In this document: in pieces, positions 1,009 to 26,834 of the stretch
How positions within the stretch are numbered: the first letter of the stretch is position 1
How the letters are laid out: every line of letters begins with the position of its first letter
Source of the DNA: a virus
Strand: one strand, 5' to 3'
IMG/VR virus record: IMGVR_UViG_3300010885_058680
Coordinates: 1-27,046 of that record
Length of the DNA: 27,046 nt
The notes under the pieces: model-generated
Databases searched by the model: none
What the model was told of the DNA's origin: nothing
Seen by the model: the letters and a program-made list of their open reading frames with translations, nothing else
Translations under genes and position numbers: made by a program

Positions 1009-1167
1009 TTAGTCCGAAAGTTTCACTACCATATGTGTAAATACAAATTCGTCATAGTTTGATGGAGCATTAATCCATTCAACCTCAAGAATGTCCTTAT
1101 CTGGTATATCTACTACAACAGCCATAAAAATTTGATAACCTATAAGATCACCAACCTTGTATTTCAC
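1009..1167 (-). CDS. KVGDL-family small beta-barrel-like protein, GTG start
   Basis: This 52-residue protein begins VKYKVGDLIG from a GTG at 1165-1167 that overlaps the stop of the preceding gene (GTGA). It is one of six or seven small proteins in this window that start K-x-G-D-L and follow with short hydrophobic strands and a V-x-W motif (here VEWIN). The pattern suggests a small SH3- or KOW-like barrel; this is inference from strand spacing, not from a recognised domain. With 1164-1442 and 1439-1618 it forms a tandem set linked by four-base overlaps, which looks like gene duplication with translational coupling. Confidence 0.7.
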   Translation of the reverse strand: MKYKVGDLIGYQIFMAVVVDIPDKDILEVEWINAPSNYDEFVFTHMVVKLSD

Positions 1168-1442
1168 TTAATCACCTCACCATCAATTTCATCTTGGTAG
1201 AAATAGTATTCTTTTCCATCAACTTGCGAATACCAGACATAACCGTTGTCGTTTTCAGTTGAACTTTTTTCAAAAAGATCGGTATGTTTTTCAACTTCGG
1301 TGATAATACCAATTGTATTATGAAGGTGAGGGCGAAGGCGAGGCCGAGGGAGAAGGGGAAGGCGAAGGGGAAGGCGAGGGCGAGGGTGAGGGTGAAGGCT
1401 AATATCTTTTATAAGAAGAAGATCACCAACCTGATATTTCAT
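1164..1442 (-). CDS. KVGDL-family protein carrying an in-frame hexamer-array insert
   Basis: The 92-residue product starts MKYQVGDLLLIKDI, then has about 26 residues of H/R/L and P/L dipeptides (such as HPHPRPRLPLRL), then resumes with NTIGIITEVE and ends EYYFYQDEIDGEVIK. The middle part is encoded by the array at 1322-1399. The ends match the protein at 26577-26834 very closely, including at DNA level, so the two are recent paralogues. Start and stop overlap the neighbours by four bases (ATGA upstream, GTGA downstream). The insert would form a long proline/arginine-rich loop between the first two strands of the presumed barrel. Whether the product folds is uncertain; the frame is open throughout. 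Confidence 0.75.
   Translation of the reverse strand: MKYQVGDLLLIKDISLHPHPRPRLPLRLPLLPRPRLRPHLHNTIGIITEVEKHTDLFEKSSTENDNGYVWYSQVDGKEYYFYQDEIDGEVIK
1322..1399. repeat. GARGGN hexamer array 1 (13 units)
   Basis: Thirteen contiguous hexamers on the plus strand fit GA(A/G)GGN, with one GAGGCC. The third base is always A or G, and the sixth takes all four bases. The array is GC-rich against AT-rich flanks and ends at an in-frame plus-strand TAA at 1400-1402. It lies in frame within the gene at 1164-1442, where the variable bases fall at second codon positions. Confidence 0.9.
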
Positions 1443-1618
1443 CCACTTTCCAGCTTCAAGTTGTGACAGTATTCATATTCGTGAACATAATGTTCAACAC
1501 CAATCCATTCTATTCGAGCAATTAAACGATCTCCTGGCTCATCAACAATTTCTACAATAATACCAAGAAAGCCATTGGCTGAAACAAGATCACCAACCTT
1601 TTTAGTATCAAGATACAT
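1439..1618 (-). CDS. KVGDL-family small protein
   Basis: This 59-residue protein (MYLDTKKVGDLVSANGFLGIIVEI...) starts at ATG 1616-1618, with AAGG six bases upstream, and its TGA overlaps the next ATG as ATGA. It has the family layout: KVGDL, GIIVEI, then a V/I-x-W motif (ARIEWIGVEH). It has no array insert, so it shows the uninterrupted length of the family and makes the extra segment in its neighbour stand out. Function is unknown. It was found by reading the gap between larger frames; the family match and overlaps on both sides make it convincing. Confidence 0.75.
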   Translation of the reverse strand: MYLDTKKVGDLVSANGFLGIIVEIVDEPGDRLIARIEWIGVEHYVHEYEYCHNLKLESG

Positions 1619-1626
1619 AATATACC

Positions 1627-1827
1627 TTATGGAAGTAGATCAACCCACCAAGCCCAATTAACAGCAATAAAATCTTCAAGAGCGTGTTGATCACTGTCGT
1701 ATTTAAAATCTGGTTTTACTTTTGCTGCTACACCTTTTTGGTATTCAATAGCTTCTTTTTCTGTATAGCCTTTAATTACTGAGGTTCCATCTTCTCTGAA
1801 ATCTTCAAAAGCATAAAAGCCGGTCAT
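1627..1827 (-). CDS. Hypothetical 66-residue protein
   Basis: The product (MTGFYAFEDFREDGTSVIKG...) is small, acidic and aromatic-rich, ending NWAWWVDLLP. The start ATG is at 1825-1827; an AAGG lies about twelve bases upstream, rather far for a strong ribosome site. Its stop is followed after eight bases by the gene at 1439-1618, whose ribosome site overlaps this gene's end. It sits in the small-gene operon driven from the promoter at 2432-2460. The segment GYTEKEAIEYQ looks like a conserved turn-helix, but I cannot assign a family. Confidence 0.7.
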   Translation of the reverse strand: MTGFYAFEDFREDGTSVIKGYTEKEAIEYQKGVAAKVKPDFKYDSDQHALEDFIAVNWAWWVDLLP

Positions 1828-1845
1828 ATTAATTACGCAACCTTT

Positions 1846-1932
1846 TTAAGACTTGTGAGAACAAGACAGAACTTCAATAGCAACACTATCAGTCCAACCT
1901 TCAAGCATTTTCTTGAAAGCGGTTTCGTTCAT
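1846..1932 (-). CDS. Small protein with uncertain, possibly ATA, start
   Basis: From the ATG at 1930-1932 the frame reads MNETAFKKMLEGW... for 28 residues to TAA at 1846-1848, but this ATG has no ribosome-binding site. Further upstream, a GGAG at the ideal distance precedes an ATA codon at 1960-1962, in frame, which would give a 38-residue protein beginning (M)GYRSEVVLAMNE. GYRSEV followed by hydrophobic residues looks like a real beta-strand N-terminus. Either the start codon has mutated from ATG to ATA or an AUA start is used. The protein looks short and may be a remnant. It lies between the genes at 1987-2403 and 1627-1827. Confidence 0.45.
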   Translation of the reverse strand: MNETAFKKMLEGWTDSVAIEVLSCSHKS

Positions 1933-1986
1933 AGCAAGCACAACTTCACTACGGTATCCTATTATGTTCTCCGCTTGTTTATATAT

Positions 1987-2403
1987 TCAAACAGCAGTCA
2001 GCTTATACTTTTTGCCATCAATCTCAACTACTTTGCCTTCACAGGTATCCTTATTCAACTTTTCAATACCGTTATATTGTAGGGCGAGGGCGACGCCGGG
2101 GAAGGAGAAGGAGAGGGCGACGCCGGAGAAGGCGAAGGCGAAGGAGAGGGCGAGGTAGAGGGAGAGGGAGAGGTTTGTTTTATCCTTGAAATCAAAAGCC
2201 TCTTTACCATTCAAAAGGAATTTTTCACCCTTTCTGGAAAGGAGATGTTCCCTTTTGTCTTTGACAATGGAATAACCAAACTCTTTACGAAATCGGTTCA
2301 TTTCGGCAAACCAAAAATCGTTCAAGACATAATCAACGCCTTCTTCCATACCGTGAAAGGTTGAAAGAATAGCATCATCAGTTTGTTCAATAGTGAGTGA
2401 CAT
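1987..2403 (-). CDS. Hypothetical protein with hexamer-array insert
   Basis: I take the start as the ATG at 2401-2403 (MSLTIEQTDD), which has GGAG upstream and lies 28 bases below the promoter -10 box; this gives 138 residues. The N-terminal 75 or so residues look like a normal soluble protein. Then come about 32 residues of (L/F)(S/A)-type repeats (LSLSLYLALSFAFAF...), encoded by the array at 2081-2174, after which an ordinary sequence resumes (YNGIEKLNKD...KYKLTAV). The protein is unrelated to the KVGDL family, and the array is read in a different codon phase than in 1164-1442 and 26577-26834. I recognise no family for the non-repeat parts. Confidence 0.7.
   Translation of the reverse strand: MSLTIEQTDDAILSTFHGMEEGVDYVLNDFWFAEMNRFRKEFGYSIVKDKREHLLSRKGEKFLLNGKEAFDFKDKTNLSLSLYLALSFAFAFSGVALSFSFPGVALALQYNGIEKLNKDTCEGKVVEIDGKKYKLTAV
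2081..2174. repeat. GARGGN hexamer array 2 with a 27-base higher-order repeat
   Basis: The plus strand reads mostly GARGGN hexamers, interrupted twice by a nine-base GACGCCGGR block. Bases 2086-2112 and 2113-2139 form two near-identical 27-base copies. In the plus frame the array reads as Glu-Gly repeats with two GDAG blocks. It is in frame with the gene at 1987-2403 but in another codon phase than arrays 1 and 3. It is strongly GC-rich against its flanks. Confidence 0.9.
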
Positions 2404-3476: not shown

Positions 3477-3513
3477 TAAATAGCACGGATTAAGAAATAG
3501 TGCTATACTATTT
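3477..3513 (-). promoter_or_regulatory. Weak promoter-like site and inverted repeat before the HNH gene
   Basis: The minus strand has ATCCGTGC followed by TATTTA (3477-3482), matching the spacer end and extended -10 of the P1-P5 family, but no -35 box is present at the right distance. Overlapping it, AAATAGT and ACTATTT (3495-3501, 3507-3513) form a 7-bp inverted repeat directly after the tRNA CCA end. It could be a processing or termination hairpin plus a weak promoter for 3053-3457. Confidence 0.35.
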
Positions 3514-3588
3514 GGTGGAACGAGTGGGCCACGATCCCACAACTTTTTCGTTAAAAGCGAAATACTCTGCCACTTGAGTTATCGTTCC
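3513..3588 (-). tRNA. tRNA-Lys(UUU)
   Basis: A full cloverleaf folds on the minus strand: acceptor GGAACGA/TCGTTCC, D stem ACTC/GAGT with GG in the loop, anticodon stem TTTCG/CGAAA with loop CTTTTAA (anticodon UUU at the central three bases), T stem GTGGG/CCCAC, discriminator A, and an encoded CCA. The T loop is ATCGTGG rather than the usual TTCRANN, so bases 54 and 58 are A and U instead of U and A. It decodes AAA and probably AAG. Confidence 0.92.
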
Positions 3589-3851: not shown

Positions 3852-3927
3852 TGGTGGGTTCGCTGAGATTCGAACTCAGAATGTGCAGATTAAGAATCTG
3901 CTGTGATAACCATTTCACCACGAACCC
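3852..3927 (-). tRNA. tRNA-Lys(CUU)
   Basis: The minus strand folds to acceptor GGGTTCG/CGAACCC, D stem GTGA/TCAC, anticodon stem GCAGA/TCTGC with loop TTCTTAA (anticodon CUU), T stem CTGAG/CTCAG with a canonical TTCGAAT loop, discriminator A, and encoded CCA. It reads AAG. With the tRNA at 3513-3588 it supplies both lysine isoacceptors. Confidence 0.92.
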
Positions 3928-5967: not shown

Positions 5968-7245
5968 TCAGCATTCTGTTCCTACCCAGTAATTTAGTGA
6001 GTCTATCATTCTTTGAGGATCTGATGTTAAATAATCAATAAATCCACCGCAGTCTTGTGTTAAATCAACCCACTGTGATTGATTGGGCACATCAAAACTA
6101 ATAAACGCACTTACCGAATATCCATTTTCATAGCATTGTTGTGATACCATACCTAATCCGTCTTGTATAGATTGGAACATAAACTGTTGTATTTCTTCAT
6201 CAGAGAATACAATCACTTTTCTATTTGTATTTTGCCAATCAACATACAAGGAATCTGTTTGATCATTGCCATTATATATGGCATCTAATTGATATTCTAA
6301 TCCACCAGAATACATGGGTTGATTATTGATTCTTAAAACATGACAGGCGGTATTTGAATCAGTGAAATCTGTTAATTTAGCCATTTCTGTGGCACCGGCA
6401 TTGTGTGTATATCCAATTCCAATAATGGCGAATCTGCTATTCTGTAAAACACCTTGCGATGACCATTCACATAAAGCATCAGCGACGGCATCAATTGTTC
6501 CAGACATTGAACCAGAATAATCTACAACAAGGAGATAGTCTGCTGAATCGTTTGTTGTTTCGTCTTCGTCCGTAACACCATCACAATCATCATCGTCACC
6601 GTTACCACAAATTTCGACAACAGGTGTTCTCATATTTCTTATATTTACTTGGCCATTCACGCATTCACGATAACCGGCACGACATTCACCAACGTTTATT
6701 GTATCTGGATCACCTGTATAAACATAGCGGTCTGCTGGATCAAATATTGGATCATCATCTGTATCTTCGTCTATTTCGCCGTCACAATCATTATCTCTGC
6801 CATCACATACTTCTTTACCATAATTGTCTGGTGGAACACAAATATATTGTCCATCAATACAAAGTTCTCGCGAGGATCTACATACGCCCAAAGCATTTTG
6901 AACGCACTCATTTCTTGAATCCCAAGAACTTCTGTTAACTTGCCAAGGATTATCTACAACACCATCGCAATCGTCGTCTAGACCATTACATACTTCGTAG
7001 TCTGATCTTACTTCTCCATCACAGTATATTTTGTTTTCTTCGTCTTTTTTTGTATAACCAACGTGGCATATACCTACGTTAACCTGTTCTACATCTTCTT
7101 GACCAAGTTTAAGATAATCGTAAGGATCTGATTCGTTTATCATACATGGCTGACCTAAAAGTTCTACTAATGGTTCCTGTTCGCAGTTATCGCAAGAAAC
7201 CGAAAATAATAATAAAACTAATAGTAAAAGCCTATTTTTGGTCAT
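5968..7245 (-). CDS. Lipoprotein with three MopE-like motifs and a vWA domain
   Basis: The 425-residue protein starts with a lipoprotein signal (MTKNRLLLLVLLLFSVSC, lipid cysteine at 18, Asp at +2). Three acidic, cysteine-flanked motifs follow, CNGLDDDCDG (86-95), CDGRDNDCDG (147-156) and CGNGDDDDCDG (213-223), of the type found in putative metal-binding MopE-like repeats. From about 236 a von Willebrand A domain begins, with the MIDAS signature DYSGS (D242, S244, S246), which binds a divalent metal and often a protein ligand. Such architectures are known from bacterial surface proteins, for example in Myxococcota, and are unusual in phage. It may be an envelope receptor-blocking, lysis-related or adhesion protein acquired from a host. 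The start overlaps the previous gene by 14 bases. Confidence 0.88.
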   Translation of the reverse strand: MTKNRLLLLVLLLFSVSCDNCEQEPLVELLGQPCMINESDPYDYLKLGQEDVEQVNVGICHVGYTKKDEENKIYCDGEVRSDYEVCNGLDDDCDGVVDNPWQVNRSSWDSRNECVQNALGVCRSSRELCIDGQYICVPPDNYGKEVCDGRDNDCDGEIDEDTDDDPIFDPADRYVYTGDPDTINVGECRAGYRECVNGQVNIRNMRTPVVEICGNGDDDDCDGVTDEDETTNDSADYLLVVDYSGSMSGTIDAVADALCEWSSQGVLQNSRFAIIGIGYTHNAGATEMAKLTDFTDSNTACHVLRINNQPMYSGGLEYQLDAIYNGNDQTDSLYVDWQNTNRKVIVFSDEEIQQFMFQSIQDGLGMVSQQCYENGYSVSAFISFDVPNQSQWVDLTQDCGGFIDYLTSDPQRMIDSLNYWVGTEC

Positions 7246-8215: not shown

Positions 8216-8689
8216 TCACGCTGCAAGAGCGTCAAGATCTTTTTCTTCTGTTTCTCGTTTTGTTTTCTTAACTTTCACACCAGACTGAATTGGTGCGTCG
8301 CCCCAAAAATTAGGATTATCATGCTTATTTGTTAGGAACTGAACGATGATAAATTGTTTATCATCTTTAATCTTGAAATCAGCCTTGTATGGCTCCAGTT
8401 TACCGTATTTTGGTTCTGGCTCTTTCTTTTGATACTTCTTCTTTTCTGGTGCTGTATTTAAGTGATTGAGAACACGATGAATAATATCTTTCTCACTCAA
8501 AAACTCATCACGAACCATATTGACCCAATTAATATCAATATAGCCCAATACAACCCACCTTGATGAACCAAAGTTCTCAACTTCCCAATGCATCGATTGA
8601 GAATATCGACCAGCCCTTGTTTCTTCACTATTTGAAGCTGGAATTTGTCGAAAATCACATTCAATTTTTGGTTTCTGGGTGTCAGTCAT
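8216..8689 (-). CDS. Hypothetical 157-residue protein
   Basis: The frame starts at 8687-8689 (MTDTQKPKIECDFRQIP), overlapping the glutaredoxin stop by eight bases, and ends in an acidic tail (EEKDLDALAA). The middle has an aromatic segment MHWEVENFGSSRWVVLGYIDINW and a lysine-rich linker, then KDDKQFIIVQFLTNKHDNPNFWGD. It looks soluble and beta-rich. I recognise no family. It sits between glutaredoxin and Hsp20, in the small overlapping-gene run. Confidence 0.75.
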   Translation of the reverse strand: MTDTQKPKIECDFRQIPASNSEETRAGRYSQSMHWEVENFGSSRWVVLGYIDINWVNMVRDEFLSEKDIIHRVLNHLNTAPEKKKYQKKEPEPKYGKLEPYKADFKIKDDKQFIIVQFLTNKHDNPNFWGDAPIQSGVKVKKTKRETEEKDLDALAA

Positions 8690-8957
8690 TTAGTAGAATC
8701 CTTCCTGAGTTACGATTCAAACGTTCATTCAATTCGGTAAAACCACCAACAACAGTTTCATTATTGTTGTCATCAATAGCCACTACAATTGGGACAGTTG
8801 GCCAATTATAGTGAGCCTTTTGCTCTTGAAGGAAGTTATCACTTTTATCGGCTGCAACCACAATAAAAGGAATTTTCTTTTGTGTCAAGAGATTAACTGC
8901 CTTCTTACAAAAAGGACAGTCAACTGTGACAATAAGTTTATACATTTTTGGATTCAT
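8682..8957 (-). CDS. Glutaredoxin
   Basis: This 91-residue thioredoxin-fold protein has the active-site CPFC at residues 14-17, the cis-proline segment WPTVPIVV and the glutathione-side GG-F motif (VVGGFTEL). These are hallmarks of glutaredoxins, which use glutathione to reduce disulfides and, in phages, commonly donate electrons to ribonucleotide reductase. No reductase gene is in this window. The start ATG overlaps the previous stop as ATGA and the end overlaps the next gene by eight bases. Confidence 0.9.
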   Translation of the reverse strand: MNPKMYKLIVTVDCPFCKKAVNLLTQKKIPFIVVAADKSDNFLQEQKAHYNWPTVPIVVAIDDNNNETVVGGFTELNERLNRNSGRILLND

Positions 8958-26576: not shown

Positions 26577-26834
26577 TTAACTAATCACCTCACCATCAAC
26601 TTCGTCTTCATAGAAATAGTATTCTTTCCCATCAACTTGTGAATACCAAATATAACCATTATATTTTTCTGTTGAACTTTCTTCAACTTCGGTAATAATA
26701 CCAAGTGTATTATTAAGACAAAGGAGAGGGTGAAGGCGAGGGAGAGGGCGAGGGGGAAGGGGAAGGGGAAGGTGAGAGAGAGAACTAAAACGAATATCTT
26801 TTATAAGAAGAAGATCACCAACTTTGTATTTCAT
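26577..26834 (-). CDS. KVGDL-family protein with hexamer-array insert, second copy
   Basis: The 85-residue protein starts MKYKVGDLLLIKDI and ends EYYFYEDEVDGEVIS, almost the same as the protein at 1164-1442, with which it shares long DNA stretches. Between the two halves it carries a Pro/Leu/Arg/His insert (SHLPLPLPPRPLPRLHP) coded by the array at 26720-26785. Compared with the other copy it lacks a seven-residue segment after ITEVE (HTDLFEK) and differs in the number and order of array units. AGGTGAG lies at the start. It is placed between the dnaE stub and the homing endonuclease and looks like cargo of that insertion. Confidence 0.75.
   Translation of the reverse strand: MKYKVGDLLLIKDIRFSSLSHLPLPLPPRPLPRLHPLLCLNNTLGIITEVEESSTEKYNGYIWYSQVDGKEYYFYEDEVDGEVIS
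26720..26785. repeat. GARGGN hexamer array 3 (about 11 units)
   Basis: Eleven hexamers, eight of them matching GARGGN exactly, and the outer ones (AAAGGA, GAGAGA, GAGAAC) degenerate. The plus strand contains GGG-AGA-GGG-CGA-GGGGG-AA-GGGG, a good G-quadruplex motif. In frame on the plus strand the units read Gly-Glu repeats and end at an in-frame TAA (26786-26788). Confidence 0.9.

Follow-up and report, generated by a model that had tools for sequence, protein, structure and literature searches.

Antisense Glu-Gly-coding arrays in two phage gene families and their probable cellular source

How does one degenerate hexamer come to lie within the coding sequences of unrelated phage genes, on the strand opposite to the gene and without interrupting it? 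The question is raised by an IMG/VR virus record, of which the whole stretch analysed here, referred to as the window, comprises 27,046 bases at 37% G+C. Nearly all genes of the window are on the minus strand, including those for GroEL, ClpP, PurA, DNA polymerase III alpha and a MopE-motif VWA lipoprotein; gene names without a family match were read off the translations. Two tRNA-Lys genes lie near each other at 3513-3588 and 3852-3927 (anticodons TTT and CTT). The first-pass annotation of this DNA described three GARGGN arrays antisense in minus-strand genes and took them for a mobile or expanding element that is tolerated in any reading frame.

Three arrays in two reading phases

The three arrays are real, with scores of 57 (1322-1399), 36 (2081-2173) and 45 (26721-26782) that are far above the maximum of 11.2 found in 20 first-order Markov windows of a length equal to the window. 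The first array consists of 13 units on the plus strand (1322-1399), where it reads as (Glu-Gly)n followed by TAA. It is read antisense, in codons CYT and CNC, by the first KVGDL gene (1164-1442, minus strand, 92 aa), which encodes a small barrel protein and carries the array between strand 1 (residues 8-14) and strand 2 (residues 44-51). The second KVGDL gene (26577-26834, minus strand, 85 aa) contains the plus-strand array at 26721-26782, and the orthologue in the colinear contig G005 contains a different one. Two GDL-family paralogues on the minus strand have no array. One of them, at 1009-1167, adjoins the first KVGDL gene, and the other, at 1439-1618, has the short loop VSANGFLGIIVEI. The unrelated gene 3 (1987-2403, minus strand, 138 aa) is composed of an N-terminal domain, the array as linker and a C-terminal GKVVEIDGKKYKL motif, and reads its array (plus strand, about 2081-2173) antisense in codons YTC and NCC.

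These phases agree with the first reading of the sequence, giving Pro/Leu with His/Arg/Leu/Pro in the KVGDL genes and Phe/Leu with Ser/Ala/Thr in gene 3. It is also correct that NCCYTC cannot produce a stop, since none of its six codons (NCC, CCY, CYT, YTC, TCN, CNC) is one. Although any frame could in principle tolerate the insert, this phage clade shows only two of the three phases, and within a gene family the phase does not change. The description as hexamer arrays has to be amended for gene 3, whose array is not a pure hexamer and has its most informative part in a 27-nt imperfect duplication with GAC-GCC-GGN elements (2086-2138, plus strand). The copies of this direct repeat, a GEGDAGEGE unit, differ only at Gly wobble positions in the Glu-Gly frame. 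Antisense to gene 3, positions 2083-2172 of the plus strand encode GEGDAGEGEGEGDAGEGEGEGEGEVEGEGE.

The KVGDL protein is predicted to fold into a barrel of five strands (mean pLDDT 84.6), in which the array makes up a long first loop with pLDDT of about 60. Among solved folds, the model comes closest to Tudor/KOW/SH3-like barrels (VIA-align; 7egs_B with Z 7.0, 53 residues, rmsd 1.5), a small-barrel arrangement so common that the similarity is uninformative on KVGDL function, and Foldseek with the same model returned nothing below E 0.1. The model of gene 3 is weak (mean pLDDT 56.9) and lowest in the array region. PHROGs and Pfam returned nothing convincing for the three array genes. The array sites appear to be a tolerant loop in the KVGDL barrel and a tolerant linker in gene 3.

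A Glu-Gly code on the opposite strand

Across the 121 units of the KVGDL arrays, position 3 is A in 62, G in 57 and T in 2 units, while position 6 is C in 68, T in 23, A in 20 and G in 10. Positions 1, 2, 4 and 5 are more than 96% fixed, and the gene 3 arrays are similar. Variation is confined to the synonymous positions of GAR GGN, encoding Glu-Gly on the strand opposite the phage gene. The first-pass annotation mentions neither this Glu-Gly reading of GARGGN nor the cellular source to which it points. Read in the KVGDL frame, the frozen positions 2 and 5 become the silent third positions of codons, and variation falls on second codon positions. Third positions in the array have an expected pairwise identity of 0.98 compared to 0.71 for four-fold sites in the flanks (gene 3: 0.73), so that clean arrays appear to be more recent than the genes surrounding them.

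R and N are used alike in both phases (p = 1.0 and 0.16). This usage resembles that of cellular Glu-Gly tracts and differs from what the phage itself uses for Glu and Gly (GAA.83, GGT.57), with p = 3e-23 for Glu and p = 7e-37 for Gly. The fingerprint thus described goes beyond what either phage protein can impose. We rejected selection at the protein level because silent positions are frozen, non-silent ones are variable and usage is the same in two phases. On these grounds the earlier view holds that the gene tolerates the array as DNA and that selection for a motif in the phage protein does not maintain it.

A related phage encodes a linker of another kind, a sense Gly-Gln/Gly-Glu linker of GGTSAA units in a VWA-type protein (L150, 6143-7417). 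Its GGT usage is phage-like, unlike that of the antisense arrays.

Stable sites and variable content

Searches of IMG/VR gave 11 KVGDL and 4 gene-3 homologous loci, and profile scans of IMG/VR for further homologues added no new contigs. The insert is located at the same place in all four gene-3 homologues and in every KVGDL homologue except L146 (KDI-array-NTxGII; FKDKTN-array-LQ.NGIEKLN). Most homologues have a clean array of shared orientation and phase and varied content; the arrays of L137 and L143 are decayed, and L146 has none. All array-bearing homologues of both families are read through in frame. Array-free versions, sought among the homologues, exist as several GDL-family paralogues, and across the big GDL family the loop at that place is naturally long and variable. 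This family of paralogues is strongly expanded in the phage contig L146, with about 20 small GDL-family genes, many of them in tandem.

Contig G005 runs colinear with the window for 6.4 kb, mostly at 90-100% identity. In the gene at 26.7 kb, identity is high up to GGTGATCTTCT, falls to 79-84% with indels in the array block and then recovers, the sides of the array being 92-100% identical. The divergent block extends past the array into the KVGDL gene, and exchange of KVGDL segments between phages therefore explains part of the turnover. L138 and L140 have the array ends and some interior units in common, which indicates that ordinary gain and loss of units also occurs.

The same gene sites and the same phase, combined with scrambled content in relatives, argue for an insert that is stable in site and variable in content, and not for a promiscuous mobile element. 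Free mobility as first suggested does not agree with the common place, orientation and phase of the insert in close homologues, and those parts of related contigs that were read have antisense arrays only at the sites in KVGDL and gene 3. A transposable element with a target site was rejected for the same reason, the parts read from relatives being devoid of antisense arrays outside the two gene families. The other possibility raised at first pass was a Pro/Leu-rich segment that is an old part of the protein, with conserved residues in distant phages. What is conserved in the homologues is the position and not the residues.

In the 275.5-kb phage contig L037, two paralogous ORFs of 82-89 aa (6789-7034 and 8517-8783) contain antisense GARGGN arrays in which position 6 is mostly T. 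This pair constitutes a third gene family with this kind of insert.

Probable cellular source and proposed exchange within the array

Ten-unit GARGGN arrays in GTDB genomes belong, among the matches listed, mostly to Hydrogenedentota and to Myxococcota/'Deltaproteobacteria', and these matches are chiefly long sense (Glu-Gly)n linkers whose usage is in the range of the phage arrays. In the phylum of G018, which we read as Myxococcota, only 14 of 195 genomes have six-unit arrays. Four lake and groundwater MAGs of this phylum, G018 (K_DeepCast), G019 (NC_groundwater_80), G204 (nzgw260) and G205 (Loc090402), have about 900-2700 overlapping matches to the GARGGN pattern each. In this freshwater/groundwater clade the GARGGN matches occur as (Glu-Gly)n linkers of lipoproteins, and few other members of the phylum have any such matches. 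The GDAGEGEG element has nine occurrences in G204, two in G018 and one in G205, with single matches in 4 of 68 Hydrogenedentota genomes.

A lipoprotein-like gene of G204 (contig C31, our L303) encodes a signal peptide, a Cys and then the tract. This tract of a groundwater Myxococcales lipoprotein shares 29 of 30 residues with GEGDAGEGEGEGDAGEGEGEGEGEVEGEGE, including two DAG elements nine codons apart. A comparison of the same 30 codons in the gene-3 array and G204 gives 13 synonymous changes and 1 non-synonymous change, the remaining 16 codons being identical, and in the phage frame the same differences amount to 0 synonymous and 14 non-synonymous ones. The G204 gene is the best DNA match of the gene-3 array in the clade (E 7e-23, 85% over the array length). 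A near-identical cellular tract was not found for any array, and the phage arrays have long exact multi-unit words in common with the cellular or viral arrays sampled about as often as chance would give, so that no specific recent transfer is seen. An identity of 85% speaks against recent transfer from the G204 genome, yet it fixes the kind of source sequence. These sequence comparisons strongly support an origin of the arrays in (Glu-Gly)n-coding DNA of Myxococcota type.

The phage gene at 5968-7245, lipoprotein-like with a MopE motif (PF11617) and VWA, resembles proteins common in Myxococcota. Using it to name the host was rejected, as its matches are spread throughout Myxococcota with the best relatives elsewhere in the phylum and none at threshold in G204. 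It is a weak host pointer.

Our preferred explanation, to which we assign a probability of about 0.6, is that tolerant loops took up, in antisense orientation, (Glu-Gly)n-coding DNA of Myxococcota-type bacteria, which has since been replaced repeatedly by recombination within the array. The starting material would be DNA such as that of the lipoprotein linkers in the freshwater/groundwater Myxococcota clade, and the donor group would be the host of the phage. It would have lodged at two sites, in the first loop of an SH3/Tudor-like barrel family and in the linker of the unrelated gene 3 protein, where the arrays stay in frame and are presumably translated as meaningless loops. Because phage array and cellular tract share enough imperfect homology, relaxed (homeologous) recombination between them inside the array could then refresh it recurrently. 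Such an exchange would keep place, orientation, 6-nt register and frame, and would swap the content and re-import a clean Glu-Gly signature; in some relatives the array would decay once exchange stops. Exchange inside the array would make arrays look younger than the neighbouring genes.

Recombinases of E. coli phages have been shown to act on diverged substrates (PMC2327257 and PMC3945230), where relaxed homologous recombination by lambda Red and other Rad52-like recombinases involves phage-prophage and diverged gene pairs. As in these cases, the process proposed here would swap content between imperfect homologues. In contrast to these cases, in which prophages or gene pairs are the donors, the donor would here be low-complexity DNA within unrelated genes, read on the opposite strand.

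The site stability of the insert would also be expected if each gene family had received one ancient insertion, kept clean without re-import by selection at the DNA or RNA level, for a repeated GARGG/CCYUC binding site or a structural role. Place, phase and orientation are the same in homologues and third codon positions are frozen, as this explanation requires. A binding site does not, however, predict R at position 3 with even A and G together with host-like N at position 6, which is precisely the Glu-Gly code. Nor does it predict the match between the GDAG elements and an actual lipoprotein peptide, in which all differences but one are synonymous, and the arrays are decayed or absent in L137, L143 and L146. 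We therefore regard this explanation as unlikely. We are slightly more reserved about the idea that the arrays serve as an antisense weapon, in which phage mRNAs with (CNCCYU)n pair with (GARGGN)n lipoprotein mRNAs of the host for putative silencing and refreshed arrays track the host sequence. The cases in KVGDL, in gene 3 and in the jumbo-phage family of L037 are all antisense, and their predicted pairing with mRNAs of cellular tracts is far stronger than that of the reversed control (-137 vs -90 kcal/mol for the first array). But antisense is the only orientation that is free of stops in all three frames, which makes three of three a weak support, and strong pairing is expected from any antisense copy. 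The further step, that phages keep refreshing antisense copies of the most repeated coding sequence of the host and that their ordinary mRNAs double as putative broad antisense RNAs against many host lipoprotein mRNAs, we regard as speculative and unlikely.

Local expansion of a chance seed in each gene by hexamer slippage, a plain microsatellite, has visible gain and loss of units in L138 versus L140 in its favour. Such expansion does occur in another virus, where a portal-like gene (L065, 4077-4934) contains a CCTTCN hexamer expansion (GLPLPLPL...HLHLHLYRY) that is apparently a true local microsatellite. In the arrays, by contrast, the order of the units cannot be told from a shuffled one (no array with at least 7 units falls below p = 0.05, at few units and limited power), which argues against recent slippage as the source of variety. 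One degenerate hexamer is moreover found with the same strand and usage across unrelated genes of one clade, and its codon usage is foreign. An origin by slippage only was rejected on the shuffle tests, the simple expansion suggested at first pass does not account for the variety, and a microsatellite is in our judgement improbable. Overprinting, in which the opposite strand would encode a phage (Glu-Gly)n protein in situ, could produce the GAR GGN signature. However, a start codon before the tract is mostly missing in the Glu-Gly frame and a stop usually lies within a few codons upstream. No conserved flanking ORF surrounds the arrays, and stops occur inside the Glu-Gly frame in L139, L140 and L141. 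We consider overprinting highly improbable.

Several known systems resemble the arrays in part. Rickettsia palindromic elements (RPEs) were reportedly the subject of work by Ogata et al. in 2000. Like the arrays, they are in-frame insertions of foreign DNA in unrelated protein genes and are tolerated by the proteins. They are palindromic, of about 150 bp, and lie in frame at dozens of sites (PMC10969869). Unlike RPEs, which are palindromes of about 100-150 bp and dispersed, the arrays consist of GARGGN units in direct repetition, rich in purines on one strand, and in the phage clade are confined to two gene sites with cellular coding sequence as source. Coding microsatellites and variable tandem repeats share the short unit and the in-frame gain and loss, but the array unit is degenerate by the Glu-Gly code, random-looking in order and foreign in usage. 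Diversity-generating retroelements show adenine-templated variation. They have hypervariability localised in a conserved gene in common with the arrays, whereas in the arrays the A at position 2 is fixed in 118 of 121 units, a pattern of variation that does not fit such an element. In the literature searched, which mostly leaves out subscription papers, an account of these arrays was not found. The arrays would belong to the known uptake of bacterial DNA by phages, with a substrate, strand and persistence that are unusual.

With Myxococcota-type DNA refreshed by recombination as the favoured explanation, the arrays may have no purpose at all, or may interfere with host mRNAs as antisense. Cellular coding DNA is apparently reused on the wrong strand as a spacer in viral proteins, with the code fingerprint of the donor still legible. 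From sequence only, this fingerprint would hint at the group that supplied DNA to an uncultured phage, and the arrays would provide a natural assay for recombination between phage and bacterium at low-complexity DNA. They also offer a concrete case of a hypervariable phage loop in which the share that is selected may be weighed against the share that is recycled host DNA.
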